Made by a program: the position numbers and the translations under genes. From contig PAVO01000004.1 in assembly GCA_002713215.1 (NCBI GenBank), positions 1 through 64,000 of the forward strand: 64,000 nucleotides of DNA, written 5' to 3'. Numbering within the stretch: the first letter of the stretch is position 1; the number at the start of each line of letters is the position of its first letter. Of the stretch, positions 2,414-43,717 are shown one piece after another. The notes below the pieces were generated by a model. The model made no database searches. It was given only the letters and a program-made list of their open reading frames with translations, and had not been told where the DNA came from. This DNA comes from Crocinitomicaceae bacterium. Lineage in GTDB: Bacteria > Bacteroidota > Bacteroidia > Flavobacteriales_G > Salibacteraceae.

Positions 2414-3385
2414 GTGCACGCAATAGATTTTATTTACGAAACAATTCCTCAGTTGTATGAGGGTATAGAGACGAAGCCGGCTAAAGAAAATGATTTCTGC
2501 GTCTGCTGTAACCGTCCAGTAAGAGAAACGGCAGTACCTGAAGAGGTATGTGAAGTGTCTATATACGGCAAGTTGGAAATCCACTGTATGCCTTGCCAGT
2601 TGCTCTATCAGTCAAACGAGAAGTATCTGGGAGTAGAAGGGTACCGTGGACGAAAAGTCCTTTTCACAAATGAAGGATCTGCTCGTTTCTTGAATACGCT
2701 AATGCAAACAATGGCCGATGAAAAAGTATCGATTAGAGAAAAGGCGGCCAAATCGCAGGAAGGACACACTGTTTACCCTAATGAAGATAAATCCATCAAA
2801 GAAACTGGTGAAGCGCACGAAGTCGTCATTAATGAAGGCTCACCCGTGATCGGTAAATTAGGGATGCTAGTTGGTGCCGGAATGGCGATCAGTAAGTCTA
2901 AAGCGGTGTTTTATGCCCCCGGCAAACATTTCGATAAGTTAAAAGGGTTGGCACCGCTTTTTACTATCAAACAAATCGGTGGTTTTGCCATGGTGAATGA
3001 CGTTTTGGATGAGTTTGATGGTTCTGAACCGTATGTCTTTATTCGAGATTTTGGGAAAAAGAAAGCTCAACTCGTTCAGAACTTGAATGTGTCATCAGGA
3101 GAAAAGTCACTTTTTGCCTGTTCGAGTGACGGCGCAATGCGGATCAATAAGAAAGCCTACCTTGCCCTTAGAAAGTACGTGAACACGAATTTTGAGGGTA
3201 AATCGAAGGCTTCCGTTTCGGACTTTTTTCGAACGATTAGAAGCATGGCGGCCGGGTATACGTCGGTATCAGACGCTCAGGAAAAACTAAAAGAAATGCC
3301 GAAGATAGGTGAACTACTGAGAATCTTACCTACATGCCCTCACGAGAGAATTGATTTAACAACAGCAGTTGATAAGGGACTTTAA
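2414..3385 (+). CDS. csf1: Csf1, large-subunit-like (Cas8-like) protein of type IV-A CRISPR-Cas
   Basis: 323 aa. It opens with a four-cysteine zinc site: C29/C32 (FCVCCNRP) and C58/C61 (IHCMPC), the feature that identifies Csf1. The middle (GKLGMLVGAGMAISKSKAVFYAPGK would be about residues 145-170) fits the rest of the family. Csf1 is the Cas8-like subunit that helps the crRNA complex find its target. It starts with GTG at 2414, after GGAGTTAG. It is the first gene of csf1-cas6-dinG-csf3-csf2, all on the + strand with overlaps or short gaps, and it is driven by the operator-overlapped promoter at 2340-2368. Confidence 0.85.
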   Translation: MHAIDFIYETIPQLYEGIETKPAKENDFCVCCNRPVRETAVPEEVCEVSIYGKLEIHCMPCQLLYQSNEKYLGVEGYRGRKVLFTNEGSARFLNTLMQTMADEKVSIREKAAKSQEGHTVYPNEDKSIKETGEAHEVVINEGSPVIGKLGMLVGAGMAISKSKAVFYAPGKHFDKLKGLAPLFTIKQIGGFAMVNDVLDEFDGSEPYVFIRDFGKKKAQLVQNLNVSSGEKSLFACSSDGAMRINKKAYLALRKYVNTNFEGKSKASVSDFFRTIRSMAAGYTSVSDAQEKLKEMPKIGELLRILPTCPHERIDLTTAVDKGL

Positions 3386-3386
3386 A

Positions 3387-3983
3387 ATGCACTGTATTTA
3401 TCAAGAAACCAGTTTTCTTATGCCAAATACGGGTCAAGGAAATGCTGACGTTTGGCACAAGCAAATCATCGATCTGATGACGGATGGTAAAAATCAGGAA
3501 GGTATCCAATACCTATTCAAAAAAGACTTTAGCCAGCAGCTCCCTGAGTCCGCTCTGATTAAACTAAGAGCGGCGACTTTACCGGATGCACTCAGACCAA
3601 CTGAAAAGCGCGTAGAGTTTGCCTGTGGGGCGGATATTAAGTTAAAGCTTCGACTTTGCACCACGCGAAGAAAAAAACAGGTAGTGAGCGGCAAAGAAAA
3701 AACCGTTGAATCATTTATATCTCCCAGTGACGAAGGCTTTGTCGACTTCTTAAGTGCCATGTTATCGAACAATGGTTTTGAACTTAAAGAAATCATAAGC
3801 ACAAGTGAACTGGTGGTAGAGCCCATAAAGAAAACCAAGGGTGGACGTTCTTTTGTCCCTTGGTGTGACGTTCACTTTACTGCGACTGTGAACAATGAAG
3901 AATCGGCAAGCGTTGCTTACATCAAAGGAATTGGTCGTAAGAAAGTTTTTGGTACAGGGATGTTAGAGGTGATCAGTGAGTGA
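3387..3983 (+). CDS. cas6: Cas6/Csf5-type crRNA-processing endoribonuclease
   Basis: 198 aa. The C-terminus has the glycine-rich loop typical of Cas6 RAMP proteins (GIGRKKVFGTGMLEV, residues about 180-194). The I-E-like hairpin repeats of the adjacent array fit a Cas6e/Csf5-like enzyme that cuts at the 3' base of the repeat stem. The ATG at 3387 directly follows the csf1 stop and has AAGGGAC upstream; an in-frame TTG at 3369 would overlap csf1 and is less likely. The 3' end overlaps dinG. Catalytic residues cannot be assigned without an alignment; H2 and H18 near the N-terminus are candidates. Confidence 0.8.
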   Translation: MHCIYQETSFLMPNTGQGNADVWHKQIIDLMTDGKNQEGIQYLFKKDFSQQLPESALIKLRAATLPDALRPTEKRVEFACGADIKLKLRLCTTRRKKQVVSGKEKTVESFISPSDEGFVDFLSAMLSNNGFELKEIISTSELVVEPIKKTKGGRSFVPWCDVHFTATVNNEESASVAYIKGIGRKKVFGTGMLEVISE

Positions 3984-5970
3984 TTTAAAAAGTGTTGTTG
4001 AAACCGTATTTGGCCCAAATGGTTGGCTGAAAGAAAACGGCTTTAGACACACCGATGTTCAATTGCGATATGCACTTTCGGTCTGTGATGCTGTTGAGCA
4101 TTCAAAACAGTTGCATGCGATAGCGGCTGATACGGGCGTGGGAAAAACGCTGGCTTACCTGGTGGTTGCTTCCCTGCATAACATTATCAACTCCAAGCGT
4201 GTCGTTGTCGCTGCACATAGTATTGAGCTGCTGAGACAAATGGAAAAAGAGCTTCCACTTGTAGAGGAAATTACTCGCGAGCTCATGGGTACGGCGCCAC
4301 AGCTGGAAGTAAAAATCGGTCGGCAGCACTATATCGATCCTGAACGTGTTGAGATGCTATTAGACAGACTGAAGACAGATGGTGCTTGTCTTACCTTACG
4401 ACACACATCATTTCTTGAATGGGCGCAAAAGACGTCCACGAGCGGAACAGGCCTTATAAGCGAATGGCTCGATAAATACGGTCAATTACCTAATGGTGTT
4501 GACATGGATGCCGTTTGCATGACCAGTTACAGCAATCAGTCATCCAATATGGCTAGTTTTTTCATCAACCAGAGAACGAAAGAGTCTGGCGTCGTTTTGA
4601 CAACCCATGCAATGGTGGTTAGTTCTGCGTTTTCAGAGTCATTAGGTGACATTTGCGATACATCTTTCATTATCGATGAAGGTGACAAATTCGACGCCGC
4701 TGCGGCACTCTGGGGTAATGTAAAGACGCCACTTCAAAGGATCGCCTCTATGGCGAAGCAATGTCTATCTGATTTGAAAGGGAAGGGGGTACCTTCGTTT
4801 AAGGACATTGTCTCCCTTGCGCTTGAATTCGATGAATATTTAAGAACATTCGATCATGGTAAGGATATTTACTTTGAGTATGCACCTGTCGAAGTGACTA
4901 ATGAAATAAAGTCGTGCACCGAGCAGTTATTATCGGCTATTGAGAAGGCGTTGGAATCGACTAAAGAACAATTGGATAACGTACCTTCTTATAACGAAAT
5001 GAAAATGCTGCGAGATTTTATGCGAACCTACCAGAAGAATTCATTTTCGATTGGCCTTCACTTTTCAGAAAAGAAGCGAAATCCAGCGTTGTTAAGGCAT
5101 TTTGTTAAGCCCGCCGCATTGGTACGAAAGCATATTGAACAAGGTGCGAATCTTGTGTTTACGAGCGCGACGTTGCGCGACTTAGGTACGAGCAGAGTGT
5201 CATTTTCATCCCTTGCATCAACGTTACTTATTTCTGAACAAGAAATGGGCGTGAAAGCAGTGTACTCACCAGAGTCCTACGGTAGCTTACGTTTTTTTGT
5301 GCCGACAGATGATGTGCCAAAACCTTATAAAGATGGTGAGGTGGATTTAGCGTGGCGTGGCTATGTCGTTGAGACAATTAAGCATGCTCAGAAGGCAAAT
5401 CGTCATGTGCTTGTTTTGGCATCTAGCTACGACGAAGTTGAGGCGCTGAAGAGTCGATTAGGTAGCGCCGGCTTCTTTCACACAAAAGGTGAGTCTCTTA
5501 ACTCATTGGTTGACGCATGGAAAATCTCTGGTGGTGTTCTTGTATCACCGGCGGTATGGGAAGGTTTCAGTCCGCGAATGGATGACGGATCGCAATTGTA
5601 TACAGCAATTGTGATGACGAAGCTCCCTTACTCGGTAGCAAACGATGTGAAGCTTGGGGCATTAAGCGAGATGCTAGCGTCCAAAGGTTCTCACCATTCG
5701 GCCAACGCAATCTACTTCAAAGAAATGACACAAGAAGCCATGAAACGCTTCTGCCAAGGGGTAGGGCGTGGTGTCCGTGCGAAAACAGATAAATGTGACG
5801 TGTATATTTGTGATCCAAGAATCAATCACAGTATCAAATTGCAAAAAGGCTTTGCTAAATCACTTCCCGTGAGATTTGAATCCAACATCAACGAAGCCGT
5901 AAGGTTTGACGGTAAAGATATTGTTGAAAGCAAGGCTCTTGAGTTAGACGCTCTGGAGGGCTGGGTATGA
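3976..5970 (+). CDS. dinG: CasDinG (Csf4), superfamily 2 helicase of type IV-A CRISPR-Cas
   Basis: 664 aa. Walker A is DTGVGKT (residues about 52-58), motif II is DEGD (about 234-237), and motif VI is GVGRGVRAK (about 596-604) followed by DVYICDPR. DinG/XPD-family 5'-3' helicases have this layout, and type IV-A interference depends on this helicase. The region between Walker A and motif II has only two cysteines, so the four-cysteine Fe-S cluster of chromosomal DinG is missing. That matches what is known of CasDinG. Motif II is DEGD rather than DEAH/DEGH. GTG start at 3976 inside the end of cas6, with AGAGGTGATC as ribosome site; the stop overlaps csf3. Confidence 0.9.
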   Translation: MSDLKSVVETVFGPNGWLKENGFRHTDVQLRYALSVCDAVEHSKQLHAIAADTGVGKTLAYLVVASLHNIINSKRVVVAAHSIELLRQMEKELPLVEEITRELMGTAPQLEVKIGRQHYIDPERVEMLLDRLKTDGACLTLRHTSFLEWAQKTSTSGTGLISEWLDKYGQLPNGVDMDAVCMTSYSNQSSNMASFFINQRTKESGVVLTTHAMVVSSAFSESLGDICDTSFIIDEGDKFDAAAALWGNVKTPLQRIASMAKQCLSDLKGKGVPSFKDIVSLALEFDEYLRTFDHGKDIYFEYAPVEVTNEIKSCTEQLLSAIEKALESTKEQLDNVPSYNEMKMLRDFMRTYQKNSFSIGLHFSEKKRNPALLRHFVKPAALVRKHIEQGANLVFTSATLRDLGTSRVSFSSLASTLLISEQEMGVKAVYSPESYGSLRFFVPTDDVPKPYKDGEVDLAWRGYVVETIKHAQKANRHVLVLASSYDEVEALKSRLGSAGFFHTKGESLNSLVDAWKISGGVLVSPAVWEGFSPRMDDGSQLYTAIVMTKLPYSVANDVKLGALSEMLASKGSHHSANAIYFKEMTQEAMKRFCQGVGRGVRAKTDKCDVYICDPRINHSIKLQKGFAKSLPVRFESNINEAVRFDGKDIVESKALELDALEGWV

Positions 5971-6692
5971 CCCCATTTATATTAAAGGCGCGACTTATTA
6001 CGCCTTGTGTTTACAACCGACCAGTGAGACTACCTGGCTTGGTGTATCACGCTTTATTGGCTCATCATTGTGATGAAGGAAAAGCCACATCTGAATTGAA
6101 AAAGCTATTTAAAGAAACCGATGGTGTGTTGCACGGCTCAAGTTTGATTTTTGGTATCAAGCCTGATGCACCAGTTATCCCTTGTTACCATCCAACAATC
6201 GGTGCGATGAAGAATGAAATAGATTTTTCAAAACACCTCATTTCACCCAATGGCAGAGGTGGAAAATACACCAACGTCGTTTTGGTGGGAGGGGCAACAG
6301 GAACAAGGCTTGCCAAGAATAACGCCTACCACGCCCCCTTCATTACATTTTTTGGTTATGGTGACGCGGAAAAGATAGTGAGCCTGCTAAACCACTACGT
6401 ATCATCGGTTGGTATATATGCCAACCGAGGTGCAGGAACCTTGGATGTAGATGGCTGGAGTGCCCAGAAAATACAAGAAGATCATAGTTTGATTGATGTT
6501 TCAGGGCGCACAGGAGAAATGAACAAAGGTATGCCATTGGCACCATTGCCTGATGGCCTATTTAAGCATCTCTCGCCAGAGAAATACGGCGAGCATGATG
6601 TAGAACAATCGAGTTTGGTTCCGCCATACCACAAAGGGGCAAATGCCTGTTTGTGCGCGGTGCCAGAAAAAGTATCAAGACAGTTAGTTTAA
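5967..6692 (+). CDS. csf3: Csf3, Cas5-like subunit of type IV-A CRISPR-Cas
   Basis: 241 aa. It has a short N-terminal strand (FILKARLITPCVYN) and the segment VGIYANRGAGTLDVDGW (about residues 150-166). This resembles the glycine-containing RAMP region of Csf3/Cas5, which caps the 5' end of the crRNA. Two cysteines near the C-terminus (ACLCAVP) may bind metal. Its ATG overlaps the dinG stop (ATGA), and csf2 follows after 18 nt. Identity rests on position in the operon plus these motifs. Confidence 0.8.
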   Translation: MTPFILKARLITPCVYNRPVRLPGLVYHALLAHHCDEGKATSELKKLFKETDGVLHGSSLIFGIKPDAPVIPCYHPTIGAMKNEIDFSKHLISPNGRGGKYTNVVLVGGATGTRLAKNNAYHAPFITFFGYGDAEKIVSLLNHYVSSVGIYANRGAGTLDVDGWSAQKIQEDHSLIDVSGRTGEMNKGMPLAPLPDGLFKHLSPEKYGEHDVEQSSLVPPYHKGANACLCAVPEKVSRQLV

Positions 6693-6710
6693 AATATTTA
6701 GGGATAGACC

Positions 6711-7814
6711 ATGACTTTATTTACGGATGAAAAACGAATCAGCTTAAACATCACTGGTGAAGTAACAGTACTTTCACCAATTTCAGTTACGCGCCCAGAT
6801 GACAACTTTGTCAGTGGCACAGGAACAAAGAATAAGCCACGATTACCTCGTGCCGGCGTCAAAAAAGATGGCACAATGCCATTCATTCCGGGCTCTAGCT
6901 TCCGTGGTGGATTACGTCGTGCAGCTCGTGACTGTGTGCGAAACCTAACGGGTGAGCAATTCGATTTAGCAACAACGTACATGCTGACCCAAGGTGTTGA
7001 TATTACCAATGCGATGATTGCGCAAAAGTCGGCAGGCTCTATTGGCCTTGAAGAGCCACTTCGCAAGAAGAACCCATTCCTAAGCCTTTTCGGAGCGTGG
7101 TCACTACCTGGTCATACAGGTGTTGGTGATTTAATCCCTAGTGAGCCAGATTGTGTATTCACTGCTGGTGGCGGCGTGAGAACAAACGAATTTATTCGTG
7201 ACCCGAAACAAATTCAATTCCTGACACCGGAAGATGCAGAGAAGCTTGAAAAGATCATTATGGACGACAGCGTTACCGCCTCAGAAGTGGGTGATCTAAA
7301 AAAAGAAATCACGGACCTTAAAGCACAAATGCGCGAAGTTCGCGACAAAGAAGTTAAGGCTGCTCTGCAAGAACAGGTTGCTCACGTAGAAGCGATGATC
7401 AAAGCCAAAAAAGGCGAGAAGTCTGGTTCGACGGAAACGATTCAACGCCCATTGGAAGGTTACGAAGCGATCGCCCCTGGCACAGTGTTACATCACCGCT
7501 TGCCACTTACGATGGTAAACAGCATGGAGATGGCTCTTTTCCTTGAGTCACTTGCCAAGTACGCTAAAAACCCTGTGATTGGCGGACACAAGAACCATGC
7601 ATGTGGATACTTCAGCGCCCAATACTCAATCAGTTACTGGCCAGAAGATGAGGATCAACCTCGCGAAGTCGCCGTTATCCGTTTTGATGAGACAGGTTTC
7701 TTTATCGAAGGCGAAGCTGCTGGTGAATTGCAGGCGCTTAGAAAAGAATTCAAATCATCAGTGAAAAATGGTGACTTTGACTTCACTGCTTTCCTGTTTA
7801 GTCAGGCTGAATAA
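6711..7814 (+). CDS. csf2: Csf2, Cas7-like backbone subunit of type IV-A CRISPR-Cas
   Basis: 367 aa. The N-terminal part has the RAMP pattern ISLNITGEVTVLSPISVTRPDDNF, then PFIPGSSFRGGLRRAARD (residues about 62-79), where the G-S-x-x-R-G-x-x-R stretch is characteristic of Cas7-type proteins. Csf2 forms the filament along the crRNA spacer. Residues about 183-250 are Lys/Glu-rich and predicted coiled coil, probably an insertion in the thumb region. GGHKNHACGYF (about 288-298) is near the C-terminus. It is the last cas gene; the CRISPR array starts 58 nt after its stop. Confidence 0.85.
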   Translation: MTLFTDEKRISLNITGEVTVLSPISVTRPDDNFVSGTGTKNKPRLPRAGVKKDGTMPFIPGSSFRGGLRRAARDCVRNLTGEQFDLATTYMLTQGVDITNAMIAQKSAGSIGLEEPLRKKNPFLSLFGAWSLPGHTGVGDLIPSEPDCVFTAGGGVRTNEFIRDPKQIQFLTPEDAEKLEKIIMDDSVTASEVGDLKKEITDLKAQMREVRDKEVKAALQEQVAHVEAMIKAKKGEKSGSTETIQRPLEGYEAIAPGTVLHHRLPLTMVNSMEMALFLESLAKYAKNPVIGGHKNHACGYFSAQYSISYWPEDEDQPREVAVIRFDETGFFIEGEAAGELQALRKEFKSSVKNGDFDFTAFLFSQAE

Positions 7815-7872
7815 ACTCGGTACAAACTGAGTCACCATAAAACCTCAATTAAAGCAATGGTTTGAATTTGGA
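7815..7872 (+). promoter_or_regulatory. Short leader between csf2 and the CRISPR array
   Basis: 58 nt with no obvious separate promoter, so the array may be transcribed from the cas operon. It contains a small hairpin, CTCGGT-aca-aACTGAG (7816-7832). AAAGCAATGGTT (7851-7862) is complementary to AACCgATTGCTTT just after the first repeat (7897-7909), so repeat 1 can be enclosed in a longer stem. Confidence 0.45.
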
Positions 7873-9191
7873 GTATTCCCCGCATTTGCGGGGGTGAACC
7901 GATTGCTTTATCCATAGCGTTTATCCGTCCGTTAAATACGGATTTTAGTATTCCCCGCATTTGCGGGGGTGAACCGCGCATTATTGTCACGCCGCACCTT
8001 TTTACCCGGTATTCCCCGCATTTGCGGGGGTGAACCAAACCCCATTCTTAAGACAATTTTGTCTGACGGCGTGTTCCCCGCGTTTGCGGGGGTGATCCCC
8101 ACCCTCGACTTGGAGCAATATATGCTCGGGGTGTTCCCCGCGTTTGCGGGGGTGAGCCCGAGTGGCTTAGTCGCCACTCGACCGGCGTGGTCGTGCTCCC
8201 CGCCTCTGCGGGGGTAAACTGTTGCTGATACTTTTAGTCGTTTCGCTATATTGGTATTCCCCACACCTGTGGGGGTGGCCCGTTTGCTCGCTTACAAACG
8301 CTGGTTTATGGACAGCATTCCCCGCGTTTGCGGGGGTGAACCGTACTTACCAGGTAACGCCGAAATCATGCTCTAGTGTTCCCCGAACCTGCGGGGGTAA
8401 TCTGGATGAAAACAGCGCCGCTGAAGTGTGGAAATAGTATTCCCCGCGCCGGCGGGGGTGAGCCGTCAGCTTTGGTTAATGCCTGGACTCATTATCGGCA
8501 TTCCCCGTGACTGCGGGGGTAACCGAAAACACGCGCAATGATTCAGTGGAATTACCGCATTCCCCATGCTTATGGGGGTGAACAGCTAGGGAAGTTGTTT
8601 CGTTCTGAACTGCTACAGTATTCCTCGCTCCGCCGGGGGTGAATCAGGCGAATATACCAAGCTATTTTTGGAGAACTGTGTATTCCCCGTATCTGCGGGG
8701 GTGAACCGTACTCGCAAAAATTTGTTGGTATTCTCTCTGGGTGTTCCCCGAGCTACGGGGTGGCCGGGTTTCTAACGAAAAACGATCCAAAGAGGCGCTG
8801 TTCCCCACACCTGTGGGGGTGGTCCGGACTGAATGGCTCTCAGAGTTTTTTAAGATTCGTGTTTCCCGCATGTGCGGGGGTGAACCGGAAATACGCATGG
8901 ATGCGAAGAAGCTTTCGGGGTGTTCCCCGCGTTTGCGGGGGTGAGCTGGCAATGTATCGTCATCTAAGCTCCAAACACGAGTGTTCCCCACACCTGTGGG
9001 GGTGAGCCGGACTTTTACACGTTCTCACACGGAATATATTTGTGTTCCCCGAGCTACGGGGGTGAACCGGATTACCAAACTGAAGCTGTTACTGACGTAA
9101 TGTGTTCCCCGAACCTGCGGGGGTGAACCGTTTCGGCTGTTAGCTAATGCACAAGCGAATGTCTATTCCCCCACACCTGTGGGGGTGAATT
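7873..9191 (+). CRISPR. 22-repeat type IV-A-associated CRISPR array with variable I-E-like repeats
   Basis: Repeats are 28-29 nt, begin GTATTCCCC or GTGTTCCCC and end GGGGGTGAACCG or a variant. Repeat starts: 7873, 7948, 8009, 8071, 8131, 8193, 8254, 8315, 8376, 8437, 8498, 8557, 8618, 8680, 8741, 8798, 8859, 8920, 8981, 9042, 9102, 9163. The 21 spacers are mostly 32 nt (31-33); the first is 46 nt and the one at 8769 about 29 nt. The stem varies between repeats (CCCCGCATTTGCGGGG, CCCCACACCTGTGGGG, CCCCATGCTTATGGGG, CCCCGAACCTGCGGGG) but stays paired. The last repeat is degenerate and marks the leader-distal end. No cas1, cas2 or cas3 is nearby. Spacer targets cannot be assigned here. Confidence 0.97.
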
Positions 9192-9208
9192 AAAAGTGAG
9201 TTCGGCTT

Positions 9209-34101: not shown

Positions 34102-34800
34102 TTAGTCTTTCTTTAACTTTTTGCGACGGCCAGCCGCTCCTGAAAGCCCCATAAGACCAATTGAAACGGCCCCCAGCATTGCTGGGGCGTTCACGACCAA
34201 TGAACCATAAGTGTCAAGCGCAACCTGGTCGGTAACGGACAGGTTAAGTGAAGGCGCATAAACGTATCCATCGTTGTTTGTACCAGACTTTCTATCAGCA
34301 TAAAGTAGAACGCTCACTGAAACAGCATCCATTGGCACTGTGCCAGAGATGGTGTACTGACCCCAAGAGTTGCGACTTGTCCAACCAGTGTTGTACTGAG
34401 CTGTTAGTGCTCCGCTATGATCATAAAAAGCAACTTTAGCCAACACTCTGTCAGAATCCCCGGACCATGAATTAAGCAAGACGTTAAAGTCAAAGTTAAC
34501 AGCGCCAGCACCAATCAATCCAGCATTGATACTTTCATCATAAATCATGTTCTTTCTGCTTTGGATAACAGAGTACCCAGATTTCCCACCTAGCCAGTAA
34601 TAGCGATTAACGCCATCAACGGTCGTATACCTGCGTAAAGCAGAACTTCCTGACACCTGGCTCCACCCTGCATAGCTACCATTTTCAAAGTATTGGTTGG
34701 TTACCAACTCTTTACTAACAATGAGCTCGGCCATGGCGGGAGAAGAAACTCCAATAAGCATAGCAAGAGCAACAATTCCTTTTTTGATGAGATTGCTCAT
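34102..34800 (-). CDS. Secreted PEP-CTERM-like protein
   Basis: 232 aa. Signal peptide (MSNLIKKGIVALAMLIGVSSPAMA). The mature domain is a beta sandwich (TNQYFENGSYAGWSQVSGSS, VNFDFNVLLNSWSGDSDRV), like carbohydrate-binding modules. C-terminus: VNAPAM, hydrophobic helix, then GRRKKLKKD, an exosortase-type sorting tail. It is a divergent neighbour and structural look-alike of 34971-35672; probably an ancient duplication. Likely surface or matrix protein. Confidence 0.75.
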   Translation of the reverse strand: MSNLIKKGIVALAMLIGVSSPAMAELIVSKELVTNQYFENGSYAGWSQVSGSSALRRYTTVDGVNRYYWLGGKSGYSVIQSRKNMIYDESINAGLIGAGAVNFDFNVLLNSWSGDSDRVLAKVAFYDHSGALTAQYNTGWTSRNSWGQYTISGTVPMDAVSVSVLLYADRKSGTNNDGYVYAPSLNLSVTDQVALDTYGSLVVNAPAMLGAVSIGLMGLSGAAGRRKKLKKD

Positions 34801-34970: not shown

Positions 34971-35672
34971 ATGAACATGAAAACAGGGATGTTTGCTATT
35001 GCTTTAACTGGCCTATTCGCGGCAGGTAACGTAAGTGCTGAAATCATCACTACAGACAACGTTATTGAAAATGCACTGTTCAGCAATGAAGGTGGCAGTC
35101 GTTTAGATGGCTGGACTCTTGAAGTGGGGAGCCCGCAGTTTGGTGCTCGTGCTGACGGGTACTACATTCGTGGTGGCGCAAACTATGAAAATAACATGCG
35201 TATTTCTCAAGTTGTGTCATTCGAAGATCTTAACATTAACACATCAGTGATTGATGCCGGCCTTGCAGATCTAACGCTTTCAGCGTACCTGTGGTCTTAT
35301 GCTGGTAAGGATGATGCTCGTGTGCGCTTGTACTACATGGACGAGAACATGAACCACGTTGAAGGCAATCCATCTCAAATCTACGGCTGGTATGATGATG
35401 CCACGAGCCCTAAATACTTTGAGGGTACTGTGACCATTCCTACTGACTCTCGATACTTGCTTATCTATGTCGAAGCTAACCGGGATTATGGTTCTGGTAA
35501 CAATGGTTATATCTATAATCCATCGGCGACAATTTCATACGACAGTGAAGAACTTGCTCTTGCTGGATTTAAGGATCTGTACAACGATGTGTCGTTACCA
35601 TTATTGGGATTCGGGTTGCTACCTGGGTTATTTATGTTTGCAGGTCGCCGAAAAGGGCGTAAAGTCGCTTGA
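34971..35672 (+). CDS. Secreted PEP-CTERM-like protein
   Basis: 233 aa. Signal peptide MNMKTGMFAIALTGLFAAGNVSA. The mature part (VIENALFSNEGGSRLDGWTL; LTLSAYLWSYAGKDDARVRL; GSGNNGYIYNPSATISY) follows the same order as the 34102-34800 protein, including the G-x-x-N-x-G-Y-x-Y-x-P-S segment. C-terminal tail: LPLLGFGLLPGLFMFA then GRRKGRKVA. Divergent pair with 34102; no operator between them. Terminator at 35721-35746. Confidence 0.75.
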   Translation: MNMKTGMFAIALTGLFAAGNVSAEIITTDNVIENALFSNEGGSRLDGWTLEVGSPQFGARADGYYIRGGANYENNMRISQVVSFEDLNINTSVIDAGLADLTLSAYLWSYAGKDDARVRLYYMDENMNHVEGNPSQIYGWYDDATSPKYFEGTVTIPTDSRYLLIYVEANRDYGSGNNGYIYNPSATISYDSEELALAGFKDLYNDVSLPLLGFGLLPGLFMFAGRRKGRKVA

Positions 35673-36431: not shown

Positions 36432-37190
36432 ATGCACCCTTATAGCTACGTAAACGAAGTTCAGGCTCAAATTGATGCCGTTTTATCTGCCAACATTCCA
36501 AAGCAGTTATTACCGCACAAAGAAAGCTTACTATCAAAACTTAAGGCCGAGAAAGCTCGACTTGAGTCTACGTGGTATGACGATGAAACATACGTTCGAC
36601 GTCCATACATGGCGATCATCAAAGTTAATTCGGTATTGTCTGACTCACCTGTTGCGGTATTTGGCGCTGATGTCGCCAGCCAAGCATTAGTGAAGATATC
36701 CCTCTATTCAGCTCGCTTTAACAAAGTGACAAAAGATTATGAGGAACTGGACCTGTTGTTGTCGTGCCATGCATCTGAAAGTCAGTATGCAGACATGCTA
36801 ACAAACACGAATCAGGAATTTTCTAGCTGCATTACGTATGACGTAGTTGATGGGGTGCAGGTGTCAGATTATGACCCCGGACAAGATCCCACGAAATTGA
36901 ATTTACGCGCCATTGTAGAGAATGCGAAAGCATCTACAACTGCAAATGAATCGTACCTGAAACAACTTGGAGAGATCACCACCAAGCTGGAAGGTGGGAA
37001 GCTCACGAAAACCGACGTGCAACAATTGCTACGCGCTTTGGGCAATCTAGCTTCCATGGAAAAGGGTAATAGTGAATTCCGTGTTGCTAAAGTGGCGGAA
37101 GGGATTGACACACGCCTCCGCGAAACCCTTTTAAATATTGATGGTGCAGCACATCTTGCGATCAGCCAGCACGCACTGGAGAAAAAATAA
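36432..37190 (+). CDS. Unknown 252-aa protein
   Basis: N-terminal Pro/Lys-rich helix, a central beta domain, and a C-terminal helical region (about 165-252) with KLTKTDVQQLLRALGNL. Its stop overlaps the start of the next gene (TAATG), suggesting that the two proteins act together. Not recognised. Confidence 0.7.
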   Translation: MHPYSYVNEVQAQIDAVLSANIPKQLLPHKESLLSKLKAEKARLESTWYDDETYVRRPYMAIIKVNSVLSDSPVAVFGADVASQALVKISLYSARFNKVTKDYEELDLLLSCHASESQYADMLTNTNQEFSSCITYDVVDGVQVSDYDPGQDPTKLNLRAIVENAKASTTANESYLKQLGEITTKLEGGKLTKTDVQQLLRALGNLASMEKGNSEFRVAKVAEGIDTRLRETLLNIDGAAHLAISQHALEKK

Positions 37191-38200
37191 TGAGCATATA
37201 CACCTTAGGTTTAAATGATCCCGAATTGGCATTGCTTTCACACTGTTGCGCCGAGTCAGCCCAATCTTTGTTGATGGACGTTGCGGAAAAGGGAGCTGTT
37301 AAACACGATGTCGTAGCCAATTTCTTTAAAGAGGAAGTGGTTGATATTGATGGTGATGATGTTTTGCTTACTCGAAGTAAAAGTAAAGACAGTCTAAGCA
37401 TTAGCCTAAAGGTCGTTTACAATGCTGCTGTTATGGATGCTTGCCCTGAAGAACTGCCGTCAAAAGAAATTGTGACTGCGTTGATGAAAATAGGTAAAGT
37501 CAGACTGGGTCCAGTGAACCGTGACAGTGATGAAACAGAACTTCCTATGCCGATGGGGCTGGTGGATGTTGCTCATGGGTCAAGCGGCTCAAATCGCCTT
37601 GTGGATGAAACAGGTTATGTAAGTCGCTTCAGCCATATTAACTTTCATAGCGCGAGAGTATATCGAGATAACCTTCAATCAAGTAAGAAAACGGACTACT
37701 CAAACCTAATGGGGAGTCAGCACCTTGTAAGTGTGAATTTGAGCCCTAAGCAGTTCGCTAAAGTTGCTAGAGCAAACGGTGCACCAACGGCTGTAACTTT
37801 GTGCCGTTACCTGGGGGATATATTACCTAAACCTGACAAGTCAATTGAGTTCTCTGAGCAGACAATTCGCAAAGAGGGAACAGGTGTTGACCCAGCATTA
37901 GAAAAAGCGTTAGAGAGCGCTATGGATGCGGTGGTCACTATGTTGACCCCAGTGAAGGCTGTTACGTCTAAGAAAGCATCAGCAGAGCTTACTACGTTAT
38001 TACAAGCAGTAAGTGTTGCCTACAGCAACTTGGCCGGAGCAATGCAGGAACAACGCCGAGCAGACATGCAAACGTTATTATCTGGATACATGGAAAAGTT
38101 CCAGATCCAAGTTGAAGAATCGGTAAGAAAATTGCCACCTAAAGTGCAAAGTAAAGTGGATATACCAAGTTTCGGCTTACTGCTTAATCACACAAAATAA
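37190..38200 (+). CDS. Unknown 336-aa protein
   Basis: Central RFSHINFHSARVYRDNLQSSKK and HLVSVNLSPKQFAKVARANGAPT (about residues 145-205) look like a folded catalytic or binding core; the C-terminal 100 residues are helical. I know no family. Coupled to 36432-37190; terminator follows at 38210-38233. Confidence 0.7.
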   Translation: MSIYTLGLNDPELALLSHCCAESAQSLLMDVAEKGAVKHDVVANFFKEEVVDIDGDDVLLTRSKSKDSLSISLKVVYNAAVMDACPEELPSKEIVTALMKIGKVRLGPVNRDSDETELPMPMGLVDVAHGSSGSNRLVDETGYVSRFSHINFHSARVYRDNLQSSKKTDYSNLMGSQHLVSVNLSPKQFAKVARANGAPTAVTLCRYLGDILPKPDKSIEFSEQTIRKEGTGVDPALEKALESAMDAVVTMLTPVKAVTSKKASAELTTLLQAVSVAYSNLAGAMQEQRRADMQTLLSGYMEKFQIQVEESVRKLPPKVQSKVDIPSFGLLLNHTK

Positions 38201-39407: not shown

Positions 39408-39686
39408 GTTTCTAATAAATAAGAACGTTGTTTCGATGCAATATACCAGCAACCACCGCGTTCTGCCGTTTACTATAATGGTTAAGAACGATTACATAAT
39501 TGGGGCGTAGATAGGGATATAAGCACTCAGGTAAACATCATTTATGTCGAACAAGTAAACTACTGGAGGGCGACTGCGCTGTGAATGGGGCTTAATGGTG
39601 AACACTGGACGTAAGCATGTTCTGCCAAGAATAAACGCTTAGAGCGCCTGGTGACTCTTTTTATCCATAAAAATCGGGCAACAAAA

Positions 39687-39709
39687 AAGGCCCTTCTTTG
39701 AAGGGCCTT
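39687..39709 (-). terminator. Minus-strand terminator at the end of the repeat array
   Basis: 10-bp perfect stem AAGGCCCTTC / GAAGGGCCTT with a 3-nt loop. The T-run (six T) is on the minus-strand side only, so it would end transcription coming leftward out of the repeats. Confidence 0.75.
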
Positions 39710-39751
39710 CCTGTGAGGTTTTACTACATCCTAGAATAAAATTTTTCCTCA

Positions 39752-40803
39752 GACTCCATGTCTATCATCTCGTCCATGTCGATGATCAAAAAGGCTCCTG
39801 CCTTTGATGTAAAGGTTTACCAGCGTTCCTGCGGTAAATTAATCCGTTTGACTCCATGTCGGCTGTCTCATCCACTGTGACAACTAAGAAAGGCTCCAGC
39901 CTTAATCTACGAGGTTTTACTACATCCTAGAGCAAAAGTGTTCCTCAGACTCCATGTCTATCATCTCATCCATGACGATGATTAAGAAGGCTCCTGCCTT
40001 CACCGGCTATTTTGCATAGCATTCCAGCTAAGAAATAAACCAAAATCCATTTAACCCACCAAATCCAATCTGGCGGCCCTGGATCAATCCTGAATCCAGT
40101 TTAATAATGTGCGGGGATTCACATATTCCTAATGTAAATTAGTCCCATGACTCCGTGTCTACTACCTCATCCATGCAGATAGTCAAAAAGGCTCCAGCCT
40201 TTGATGGTCGGTATCATCAGCAATCCAGCTGAGAAGTGAACCAAAATCCATTTCATCCATTAAATCCAGTCTAATGGCACTAAAACATCCAGCTTTAGTT
40301 AGGGTGGGGGGATCAGCATCGTCCTAATACAAATTGGCCCCATGACTCCATGTCCACTACCTCGTCCATGTAGGTAATCAAGAAGGCTCCAGCCCTCGAT
40401 AGTCGATTTCATCAGCAATCCAGCTTAGAAACAAACAAAATCCATTTAATCCACCAAATCCAATCTGGAGGCCCTGGATCAATCCTGAATCCAGTTTAAT
40501 AATGTGCGGGGATTCACATATTCCTAATGTAAATTTATCCCATGACTCCATGTCTACTATCTCATCCATGCAGACAGTCAAAAAGGCTCCAGCCTTCAAT
40601 GTTCAGTTTCAAAAGCAATCCAGCTAAGAAACAAACTAAATCCGTTTTACTCATCAAATCCAATCTAATGAGACTAAAAAATCCAATTTTTTAGTTAGGG
40701 TGGGGAACCAGCATTTATCCAACATACTAATTTTGTCCCCATTTATGACTCCGTGTCTATCATCTCGTCCATGTCGATGATCAAAAGGACTCCAGTCCTC
40801 GTT
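39752..40803 (-). repeat. Seven-unit array of covarying hairpin repeats
   Basis: Core units of about 57 nt start at 39752, 39850, 39948, 40149, 40344, 40544 and 40747 (spacing 98, 98, 201, 195, 200, 203). Each starts GACTCC(A/G)TGTC, has a 6-bp stem around a CTC(A/G)TCCA loop, and ends with AAGGC-TCC(A/T)-GCCTT or a close variant. The first stem changes sequence but stays paired: ATCATC/GATGAT, ACTACC/GATAGT, ACTATC/GACAGT, ACTACC/GGTAAT, GCTGTC/GACAAC. On the minus strand most units also read as a short peptide (GAFLI..MDE..D.ES) but start codons are not conserved and one unit is frameshifted. Could be structured RNAs, a DNA-level site array (centromere or origin), or decayed small genes. 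Confidence 0.85.
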
Positions 40804-41150
40804 TTCGGTTTACCTACATTTACAATTGTAAATATAAATCAGACAAATTGCCTGGTGACTTCATGTCAAATCTCGCTAATGCATCCTGCTGCGAGGGTAA
40901 CAGCGCTTCGTGTGTTTGAGGTCATTCGTCGCTGCTCAACCGATGAAGTAATCTTATCAAAACTAAGCTTTCAAAGTAAAGTCTTTTTTGAAAAAAAAAC
41001 AACACTTCGGTTACTTAGTAATCAATCTAATTATTCAACTAAATTGATTAATCCGCTAGACCCATTGACTGGTCTGACTTGTAGCTGAAACCCCTACAGA
41101 TCATGCGGTTATAAAAAAGTGATCAAAACACAACGAAACACACTCAAAGC

Positions 41151-41188
41151 CTTTTACAATGCGTCATATGACGCAACAAAGTGTAAAG
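41151..41188. repeat. Nested perfect palindrome
   Basis: A 16-bp perfect palindrome, TGCGTCATATGACGCA (41160-41175), is enclosed by CTTTTACA (41151-41158) and TGTAAAG (41182-41188). There is no T-run, so a protein-binding or replication/recombination site is more likely than a terminator. Confidence 0.6.
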
Positions 41189-41551
41189 TCGTTTCATCAA
41201 GGTGGTGGACCAGATTTTCATTTCAGATCTCAATCAGACAACGCTGACATAGTGACTGGCATTTGCTTAGTACACCATCGTTTCGACCGAGCGCATACTA
41301 CAAAAGGATAAGATGCCTCGCAACCTATTTTTGTAAATTAATGCAATATTTGTCAACTTAACGTCAGCAATTACGACAAAAGACTTAAAAATATAACTTT
41401 AAGCGCACGAAAAACATGCTAATAGTATTGAAAAAATAGGAATAAAGTGGCAAGGCGCCCCTACAGCCCTTTATTTACGTGGTGTAACATATTTGTAACT
41501 ATTAGGCAGGGAAATTACTTTCAAATTGTGTTTTTTAGAACATTTATTAAT

Positions 41552-41917
41552 CTATGAACTCTGTATGCGTTCCCAGTTGTTCATTAAGTAGTCTTTTAAT
41601 GGTTCAGCAAGCAACGATTGATTTCGCACATTGCAGACCTTGAGCAAATAAAGATCAAGGCCTTTACGGAAAGCAGTGATTACCGTCGTGTAAACGTCAT
41701 CACGTTCAAAAACTGCCCGGGCGACGTGAAAGCTTTCCTTAAGGTACAGGTTTGGCCTTTCAAGTCGAGTGGCATCAATTTGGATCAGATAGGGTTTACC
41801 GTCAAACAAAAGGTACATGCCGCCACTAGGTGAAGCGCCAAACAGATTGATTCGCTTGTCGCCGGCGCAATAAAAAGATTCATAGATAGTTTGCTCTAAC
41901 CAAGCGCTGTTACTCAT
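41552..41917 (-). CDS. Unknown 121-aa protein
   Basis: Starts MSNSAWLEQTIYESFYCAG with GGAGGTGACC in front; the longer in-frame start at 41995 lies inside the upstream gene. Beta-rich middle (MYLLFDGKPYLIQIDATRLERP), C-terminal helix. It overlaps the preceding gene by 8 nt, so the pair is coupled. No family known. Confidence 0.7.
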   Translation of the reverse strand: MSNSAWLEQTIYESFYCAGDKRINLFGASPSGGMYLLFDGKPYLIQIDATRLERPNLYLKESFHVARAVFERDDVYTTVITAFRKGLDLYLLKVCNVRNQSLLAEPLKDYLMNNWERIQSS

Positions 41918-42623
41918 GGTCACCTCCAGCAAAGCTAGATACGGTAGTCTGGATCTGGAACCGCATTTGAGACCCCACCTTTTCGAGCTGTTCATTGTTC
42001 AGGTGGACGATTGCTGGCTCTCCGAAGCCACCCGTGCGGATGTAACCAGAAATTGGTTCCATGTCGCTCGCGTCTACTTTTAGGTGTAGAGCGGTGTTTG
42101 ACGATAACGTAAAGGTCACATCGATGCTTGCAACCACAGAACCAAAAATGGCATCTTCAAAAAACTCGTCATTACCATTATTTAACGCATCAACAATGTC
42201 GCTATAGTGGTTCTGGGCATCTTGAACAAGCTTGGCATCAGGCAGTGGACTTGTGTCCGTATCGTCGATGACCACCTTCTTTTTGATGTTGAATCGGCTG
42301 CAATAGTTGCGAGCTAGTTCAGCGGCGCTAGTAGGATAATTAGGGTTGCACGCTTGTGATTTAAGTGTATGCCACGCAGCGTCGGCATATGCTTCAGAAA
42401 CGCCGTACTCATCCATCATTGTTGATACGAAATCGTTGTACTGGAGCTTAGCTAGCATCTGTTGCCAGTTATCAAAGCCCAGCGCTTCAGCGTGACGATG
42501 AAGTCGCTTTGACGGGCCCAGAGAGCGTAAATCTTGATTATTGAGCTCTAGGTTGTCAGATAGGTGTGCCAAGTAAGCAGTAACTTTGTCTTGGGTATCC
42601 AGAACGTAATTCGGTGTAGTCAT
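41910..42623 (-). CDS. Unknown 237-aa protein with GF-W helical motif
   Basis: Residues about 36-60 (PSKRLHRHAEALGFDNWQQMLAKL, shown by its key residues A-x-x-LGF-x-x-W) are the clearest example of the motif shared with four or five other orphans here. The C-terminal half is a beta-rich domain (GSVVASIDVTFTLSSNTALHL is its first strand region). Coupled to the 41552-41917 gene. The nearest operator (42851) is 230 nt upstream. Confidence 0.7.
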   Translation of the reverse strand: MTTPNYVLDTQDKVTAYLAHLSDNLELNNQDLRSLGPSKRLHRHAEALGFDNWQQMLAKLQYNDFVSTMMDEYGVSEAYADAAWHTLKSQACNPNYPTSAAELARNYCSRFNIKKKVVIDDTDTSPLPDAKLVQDAQNHYSDIVDALNNGNDEFFEDAIFGSVVASIDVTFTLSSNTALHLKVDASDMEPISGYIRTGGFGEPAIVHLNNEQLEKVGSQMRFQIQTTVSSFAGGDHE

Positions 42624-43174
42624 GTTTGTGCTCCAACAGTTAGCTTGCGCATTTAAACGATGTGTCTCGATTCATCATGCAAGCCAATCGTTTGGTCATA
42701 ACATGAATAAGGTATAAATAATTAAGACTGCTTTCCCCGCCAAAGGCGTCGAGACCGTCGGTAGTCAACCGGTTTCTAAGCCACTGTCCGTATCTCAGAA
42801 CGAGAGCCATTCGCGAAACAAGATCATCATCTCACAAACAAGACTTAAAAACAACATTTTTGTTGTTCTATATTAAATATAGCAATTCCTATAAGTTTAA
42901 TTACGGTTGTAAAAAATAGCCGAAAATAAATTTTTGCCGGAAATATAAAATGCAAAAAAAAGAGGTTTAACACTAAAAAGCAAGTTAAACACCAATTAAA
43001 AACAATAAAGAACCTAAAAACAACACTAAAACCATTTATAAATATGAAACAAACAACTGCAAAACCCCTGCCACAAAAGGGCTTAGGTGCGTTTTGCGTG
43101 GTTTTATGGTATAATATGCAATCTTTGGAATTAAACACTTCTAATATCTATTAAGATGAGTGCAAAGAGGGAAC
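42624..43174. other. 551-bp divergent gap with operator
   Basis: 42700-42840 is GC-richer, with CCGCC-aaa-GGCG and GAGACCGTCGG; it could fold but I cannot assign it. 42851-42866 is an operator. 42870-43120 is very AT-rich. The -10-like TATAAT at about 43112 may serve the SprT-like gene. Confidence 0.45.
42851..42866. promoter_or_regulatory. Operator palindrome between the 41910-42623 and 43175 genes
   Basis: ACAACA-TTTT-TGTTGT, perfect; distant from both flanking genes, so it may belong to an RNA promoter or act over a long leader. Confidence 0.75.
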
Positions 43175-43717
43175 ATGAAAGAGTTAAACGTATATACTGG
43201 TGAATATACAATCAACAGTGAAGATCATGAGACGATAATAAACGAGTTTGTAGGGCTTGCTAAGAAAGCAACAAGAAAAGCGTCTGCTCCTTTCAAGCTA
43301 TCCGCAGATTTCTGGAAACGACTTATTGTTACACTGGACTTTAATGATCACAGAACAGCTAGCAGGGGCGGTTATCGTAACGGCGTTGCATGGATAAATC
43401 TTGCGCTCGACAAGTACCCAAGAAAAGATGGTTATCGATTCAAGGAATACAGTACCCTTGCTACCAGTCAGAGCATGGGTAGCTGTCAGGGGTCTCTTAG
43501 GGTTTATCTGTTTGCATTGTGTGCACATGAGCTCGCTCACGCAATGCAGTATTACGCCAGAAGCAATCCTCAGAAACTGGCGGACAAAAAGGTTAACAAA
43601 GCAGGGATTAGTCGCCTTCAGTTAAAGCCACCGCATGGCGATGGTTTTAAGGAGATTTATCGCTTCTTACGCATTGAATTAGTTAATAAAATTGATGGTT
43701 TTGAGTGGCTAAAATAA
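43175..43717 (+). CDS. SprT-like HExxH metalloprotein
   Basis: 180 aa. CAHELAHAMQYYARSN (about residues 118-133) has the H-E-x-x-H zinc motif; PPHGDGFKEIYRFLR about 30 residues later supplies the third histidine, the spacing seen in SprT/Wss1-type domains. Those proteins act on DNA-bound proteins in eukaryotes; the bacterial role is unclear. Start MKELNVYTG at 43175 after AGAGGGAAC. Confidence 0.7.
   Translation: MKELNVYTGEYTINSEDHETIINEFVGLAKKATRKASAPFKLSADFWKRLIVTLDFNDHRTASRGGYRNGVAWINLALDKYPRKDGYRFKEYSTLATSQSMGSCQGSLRVYLFALCAHELAHAMQYYARSNPQKLADKKVNKAGISRLQLKPPHGDGFKEIYRFLRIELVNKIDGFEWLK

Follow-up and report, generated by a model that had tools for sequence, protein, structure and literature searches.

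A tandem hairpin array on a probable marine megaplasmid is predicted to encode an enlarged CsrB-type CsrA-sequestering RNA

CsrA is a global regulator of bacterial lifestyle. The CsrA/RsmA proteins bind GGA in a hairpin loop, ideally in the form ANGGA (PMC5864184, PMC11882849, PMC9928087). CsrB, CsrC and RsmB are intergenic RNAs composed of repeated GGA hairpins and ended by an intrinsic terminator; E. coli CsrB (RF00018) is chromosomal, 369 nt long with 22 GGA, and has a single fold without long tandem units. RsmX, RsmY and RsmZ of Pseudomonas, also chromosomal and controlled by GacA, carry ANGGA in hairpin loops and titrate RsmA/RsmE. Chromosomal Csr sponges are known in marine gammaproteobacteria as well. 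Alteromonas macleodii Te101 has Aln1a-c, all three encoded in one intergenic region of 404 nt (PMC5864184), and Pseudoalteromonas fuliginea has Pf1-3, with 25, 21 and 9 GGA (PMC11882849, which cites 22 for CsrB and 14 for CsrC). RsmQ, a Csr/Rsm protein encoded by plasmid pQBR103, reprogrammes its host (PMC9928087). In the open-access literature searched we found plasmid-borne CsrA proteins such as RsmQ and no plasmid-borne sponge, an absence that is weak evidence; likewise no report was found of a mobile element with an antagonist RNA besides its CsrA/RsmA protein.

The window, that is the whole analysed stretch of 64,000 nucleotides, is the first 64 kb of the 197,284-bp contig C4. A first-pass annotation had described in it a seven-unit array of covarying hairpins in gene-free DNA, and this description was reproduced. 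The frame GACTCCRTGTC-N6-8-CTCRTCCA has seven exact matches in 64 kb, all of them within 39,752-40,771 (shuffles expect 0), with regular start-to-start distances of 98, 98, 201, 195, 200 and 203 nt, and the longest stop-free run on the minus strand is 74 codons. The GGA excess, the placement of GGA in hairpin loops, the non-coding sequence with compensated stems, the Rho-independent terminator, the presence of CsrA in the same cell through a csrA gene on the array's own contig, and the occurrence of a sponge-like RNA in a related plasmid all argue for one reading. The array is very probably a gene for a CsrB-type CsrA-sequestering RNA on the minus strand, enlarged by tandem duplication and titrating the CsrA of plasmid and host. 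The earlier proposal of a multi-copy structured RNA is thus kept as far as a structured RNA is concerned; the prediction is now one long RNA of tandem units, on the opposite strand.

The informative strand of the array is the minus strand, and the CsrA/RsmA motif had been missed because the TCC complement was read. The conserved minus-strand loops are AGGA or UGGA in AAGGC-NGGA-GCCUU, ACAUGGAC or similar in the middle stem, which is the most variable of the stems, and AYGGA in GAC-AYGGA-GUC. The hairpin GAC-AYGGA-GTC, present in every unit, is a third one beyond those annotated before. Every conserved loop holds GGA, giving three GGA hairpins per unit. The spacers of about 200 nt, another addition to the earlier description, each form further GGA hairpins, in RNA letters for example CUGGAU-UCAGGAUUG-AUCCAG, CUAAAGCUGGAUGUUUUAG and CAGC-UGGAUU-GCUG.

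Between 39,683 and 40,905 we counted 58 GGA on the minus strand and 8 on the plus strand; 100 dinucleotide-preserving shuffles gave 35.9±4.5 with a maximum of 49. In the minimum free energy fold 29 GGA were fully unpaired, all 29 in hairpin loops, against 5.8±2.3 in the shuffles (maximum 11). The mean unpaired probability of GGA was 0.616 (0.376±0.045 in shuffles), and the folding energy lay 4.2 sd below that of the shuffles. GGA was the most unpaired trinucleotide of the predicted fold among those with at least 12 copies, although some array GGA are paired in the model, such as those in the 5' arms of the spacer A hairpins. Each third of the array RNA contained 8-12 loop GGA where about 1 was expected, and the distance from one GGA to the next had a median of 18 nt and a maximum of 36 nt. 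Along the 197-kb contig the array with its 58 GGA per 1.2 kb was followed by a runner-up of 29, the mean being 12; the density stops at both edges, and the flanks hold one GGA each. As a positive control, E. coli CsrB was treated identically, and its 22 GGA included 10 in hairpin loops, where 1.4 were expected.

For the covariation test, the seven units were aligned on the minus strand, pairs were counted for the three-hairpin structure, and 500 column shuffles were made. The covarying stems of the first-pass annotation proved genuine: of 15 pairs in three helices, eight changed on both sides (2.6 in column shuffles), 99% of the cells were paired (92.4% in column shuffles), and the covariation score was 0.425 (0.253 in column shuffles), none of these values being reached in any of the 500 shuffles. 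The signal was lost when the partner was shifted by 1-3 columns. The number of further pair types, counted alone, was not unusual (69 of 500 shuffles). Loop GGA is fixed across the units and the N of ANGGA varies (AUGGA or ACGGA) while the stems change in compensation. The copies of the B-type spacer differ by three compensated pairs; those of the A-type spacer resemble each other too closely for compensation to be judged. The coordinates of all features are collected in Table 1.

Table 1. Features of the array and of the related plasmid RNA (window positions unless an accession is given)
Feature	Position	Strand	Description
Core of predicted CsrA-sponge RNA	39683..40801	(-)	about 1.12 kb, 57 GGA; from GGA density, loop placement and spacing
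Intrinsic terminator	39680..39709	(-) only	AAGGCCCTTC-AAA-GAAGGGCCTT-TTTTGTT; perfect 10-bp stem and T tract
Unit 1	39752..39806	(-)	hairpins AAGGC-AGGA-GCCTT, ATCATC-GACATGGACGA-GATGAT and GAC-ATGGA-GTC
Unit 2	39850..39905	(-)	three GGA hairpins; middle stem GTTGTC/GACAGC
Unit 3	39948..40002	(-)	three GGA hairpins
Spacer type A	40003..40148, copy 40,399-40,543	(-)	hairpins CTGGAT-TCAGGATTG-ATCCAG, TTACAT-TAGGAAT-ATGTGA and others with loop GGA
Unit 4	40149..40203	(-)	three GGA hairpins; middle stem ACTATC/GGTAGT
Spacer type B	40204..40343, copy 40,599-40,746	(-)	hairpins CTAAAGCTGGATGTTTTAG, CCATTAGACTGGATTTAATGG, CAGCTGGATTGCTG
Unit 5	40344..40398	(-)	three GGA hairpins; middle stem ATTACC/GGTAGT
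Unit 6	40544..40598	(-)	three GGA hairpins; middle stem ACTGTC/GATAGT
Unit 7	40747..40801	(-)	three GGA hairpins; first stem compensated to AGGAC-TGGA-GTCCT
Possible 5' part of the RNA	40802..40960	(-)	read from sequence
AT-rich palindrome	~40,818-40,833	(-)	ATTTACAATTGTAAAT; read from sequence
Degenerate eighth unit	~40,855-40,882	(-)	GCATTAGCGAGATTTGACATGAAGTC; read from sequence
Candidate extended -10-like element	~40,951-40,959	(-)	TGATAAGAT; read from sequence, unproven
CsrB-like RNA of pAMCP48-600	NZ_CP018025.1 514,222-514,830	minus	609 nt, 27 GGA

Beyond the seven units, the feature reaches the terminator on one side and perhaps about 40,905 on the other, with the GGA density falling off at about 40,800. 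RNAs of the CsrB/RsmZ class have a promoter of their own, usually activated by GacA/UvrY. The promoter scan upstream of the array gave weak candidates alone, promoter-like sites being no commoner than in shuffles. No GacA/UvrY-like palindrome with up to three mismatches was found within 39,628-43,483, the box search staying at chance level. There is also a perfect palindrome, TGCGTCATATGACGCA, at window 41140-41180 upstream of the sponge, which is a possible operator.

Compared with the described systems, the array resembles CsrB, CsrC and RsmB in its intergenic position, repeated GGA hairpins, terminal intrinsic terminator and loop statistics, but differs from CsrB in length (~1.1-1.2 kb), in its 57-58 GGA, roughly 2.6 times the content of E. 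coli CsrB, in its tandem units of 98, 200 and 395 nt, in its megaplasmid location and in the lack of an Rfam match. It shares ANGGA loops with RsmX, RsmY and RsmZ; the Rfam model of RsmY, however, is 121 nt long and so holds far fewer sites; the Pseudomonas RNAs are GacA-controlled, and no GacA box was recognised at the array. The sponges Aln1a-c and Pf1-3 are similar in kind, yet Pf1-3 hold under half of the array's GGA, and the array is about 2.3 times the size of the richest sponges cited in the literature consulted for comparison. As with RsmQ of pQBR103, a plasmid would intervene in the Csr/Rsm network of its host; RsmQ is a protein that meets host sponges, whereas the plasmid of the array additionally carries a putative antagonist RNA.

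In Rfam no family reached its gathering score; the top clan match was RsmY (RF00195) with 16.7 bits (E 0.26, gathering 57), CsrB (RF00018) did not match, and the array is assigned to neither family. DNA similarity and pattern searches revealed no homologue of the array in PLSDB, INPHARED, IMG/VR, GTDB species genomes or 99 relatives of the bin. Eight pattern matches in IMG/VR were rejected, being isolated singles without array context and mostly copies of one related sequence. No plasmid relative was found for the neighbouring proteins at 37,190-38,200 and 41,910-42,623.

Contig C4 has a GC content of 44%, like C1, C7, C9 and C30 (43-45%) and unlike most other contigs sampled (mostly 38-40%). 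csrA was found in only one of 45 other genomes searched among the relatives of the bin, and C5 (20-kb sample) carries a TonB-dependent receptor of a kind common in Bacteroidota. Because of the different GC content, the near absence of csrA in the relatives and the Bacteroidota-type receptor, C4 seems to have been binned with a foreign genome, and the bin appears chimeric. Proteins of C4 have counterparts on the Alteromonas mediterranea megaplasmid pAMCP48-600, in many cases at 50-77% identity; C1 and C9 also match it. C4 contains type IV CRISPR genes, PcfJ-like proteins, methylases and transposase genes, and no tRNA gene was found on it. Given the plasmid matches, the gene content and the lack of tRNA genes, C4 most likely belongs to a megaplasmid from an Alteromonas-like gammaproteobacterium. 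The class Ia ribonucleotide reductase genes nrdA and nrdB, at C4 180,437-184,001, are 67-73% identical to their pAMCP48-600 counterparts.

The sole csrA of the bin is located at C4 90,768-90,974 on the minus strand, 50 kb from the array. It encodes a canonical 68-aa CsrA (E 7e-30 to the solved carbon storage regulator 1y00) that is near-identical to 1y00 over residues 1-55, with Arg44 present, and shares 85% identity over 55 aa with the plasmid CsrA of pAMCP48-600. Its leader has GCAGGAAGC and AAAGGAGT ahead of the start codon, which we take to be the pattern expected of CsrA autoregulation. As the probable megaplasmid encodes both a canonical CsrA and the array, the element would carry both halves of a Csr switch.

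When pAMCP48-600 was scanned blind for GGA-rich intergenic DNA, a single peak stood out, at about 514,230-514,830 on the minus strand. The RNA predicted there (Table 1) has 11 GGA in hairpin loops, where 1.7 were expected, and a terminator; it sits between an integrase gene and sbcB, where PLSDB lists no gene, and an identical copy is present on a second A. mediterranea plasmid, NZ_CP018028.1. It scored 42.6 bits (E 6.7e-10) against Rfam CsrB, below the gathering score of 71. The two RNAs are alike in lying on related megaplasmids that also carry csrA and in ending with an intrinsic terminator. The pAMCP48-600 RNA, on the other hand, is half as large, lacks a tandem array, has loops of the classical CAGGAUG type and lies in a different gene neighbourhood, and its sequence shows no clear homology to the array of C4. 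Among other csrA-bearing plasmids, the GGA-density scan gave no sponge-like outlier in V. tubiashii p123 (first 120 kb), Teredinibacter Bs12_MP, Halopseudomonas pSMJS2, P. salmonis and L. adelaidensis, nor was one seen in the plasmids of S. xiamenensis, P. agarivorans and most of P. donghaensis. An apparent peak in P. agarivorans proved to be coding sequence truncated at the edge of the scanned segment. Covariance model R1 gave chance-level matches alone against the scanned plasmids.

Among other explanations, the GGA-rich stretch might belong to a CsrA-controlled mRNA, for example as a 3' UTR belonging to the minus-strand gene pair at 42,623-41,552, which shares the strand of the array; no strong promoter was found at the array. 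But about 550-750 nt of GGA-poor DNA intervenes (one GGA in 41,000-41,550) and 57 sites greatly exceed what the control of one mRNA needs; we consider this improbable, and even as a 3' UTR the array would titrate CsrA. Small repeated peptide genes of the MDEMIDMES type on the minus strand, intact or decayed, could account for the ATG or GTG followed by D-E-x-x-D-x-E-S in each unit, and the first hairpin has an AGGAG-like loop that resembles a ribosome site. This loop, however, lies some 17 nt away from the ATG, the mini-ORFs range over 9-63 aa (17, 29, 17, 11, 18, 63 and 9 aa) with no common C-terminus, codons 4-5 swap amino acids (M/T/V/I and I/A/V) exactly along the stem covariation, one covarying arm sits upstream of the start codon, and the GGA hairpins of the spacers are left unexplained. 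The decayed peptide genes proposed in the first-pass annotation are therefore not supported, and intact ones are likewise very improbable.

The centromere or origin suggested there is not supported either, since loop GGA stays fixed while the stems covary. Tandem repeats on a plasmid, with an adjoining AT-rich palindrome that could bind protein, would suit origin iterons, a partition centromere or recombination sites. Yet DNA-binding iterons keep their sequence, whereas here the stems vary and stay paired, the conservation lying in structure; the invariant letters are loop GGA on one strand (58 against 8), a terminator stands at one end, the neighbouring genes, where rep or par would be expected, have no Pfam match, and the array of ten 107-bp repeats at contig 196,023-197,045 is a better iteron or centromere candidate. 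A DNA-level element is accordingly very improbable. Hardly more credit is due to a structured RNA encoded on the plus strand, where the complementary hairpins are present, or to a minus-strand RNA binding another protein: there is no convincing plus-strand terminator past the array, the loop conservation is sensible on the minus strand only, and GGA displayed in loops is the specific motif of CsrA/RsmA, with csrA on the same replicon. A CRISPR array would have near-identical repeats, unique spacers of similar length and adjacent cas genes; the hairpin array does not fit, as its units diverge and covary and its spacers are themselves repeated, and the CRISPR of the contig lies elsewhere.

For the CsrA-sequestering RNA we infer transcription, CsrA binding, titration, order of duplication and biological purpose as follows. 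An RNA of the CsrB/RsmZ kind would be encoded by the minus strand from about 40,900 to 39,680, transcribed leftward and ended by the intrinsic terminator. The transcript would fold as a chain of hairpins displaying GGA in single-stranded loops, and CsrA dimers may bind adjacent loops at the median spacing of 18 nt. CsrA would thereby be drawn off mRNA leaders, so that free CsrA drops and CsrA-repressed genes are released. The array may have grown by successive tandem duplications, first of a unit of about 98 nt, next of about 200 nt and lastly of about 395 nt, and its likely purpose would be to buffer plasmid-supplied CsrA, to change the host cell's lifestyle, or both.

The mechanism is already established in kind; plasmid carriage, the tandem-array build and the size are what is new. 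A plasmid with both halves could shift free CsrA either way, making Csr crosstalk between plasmid and chromosome directly testable. The tandem design indicates a route by which sponge capacity could evolve, copy number growing while compensatory changes keep the structure. We might speculate, with the chances evenly balanced, that large marine megaplasmids carry a self-contained Csr switch of their own CsrA and their own sponge, used to control the host's lifestyle; on C4 the sponge would be a tandem array, its capacity tunable by gain or loss of units. The signature, an excess of GGA on one strand in intergenic hairpin loops, can be searched in other plasmids and flagged pAMCP48-600 at once.

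Several other features of the contig were observed. The ten tandem 107-bp repeats lie near the contig end and are a candidate iteron, centromere or assembly-breaking repeat. Window 2414-9194 holds type IV CRISPR genes, including a DinG/Csf4-like helicase (3976-5970) and a Csf2-like gene (6711-7814), and after them a CRISPR array (7871-9194) with a 61-nt period and at least 20 repeats; Csf2 as query against genome contigs gave no match. CRISPR repeats are normally near-identical, but these are unusually divergent and keep a covarying stem (CCCCGCATTTGCGGGG, CCCCACACCTGTGGGG, CCCCATGCTTATGGGG). At window 34102-34800 (-) and 34971-35672 (+) lie genes for two PEP-CTERM-like secreted proteins, whose C-termini combine a hydrophobic segment with a basic tail; both match pAMCP48-600, on which prsT, a gene of the PEP-CTERM system, is found near the predicted sponge of that plasmid.
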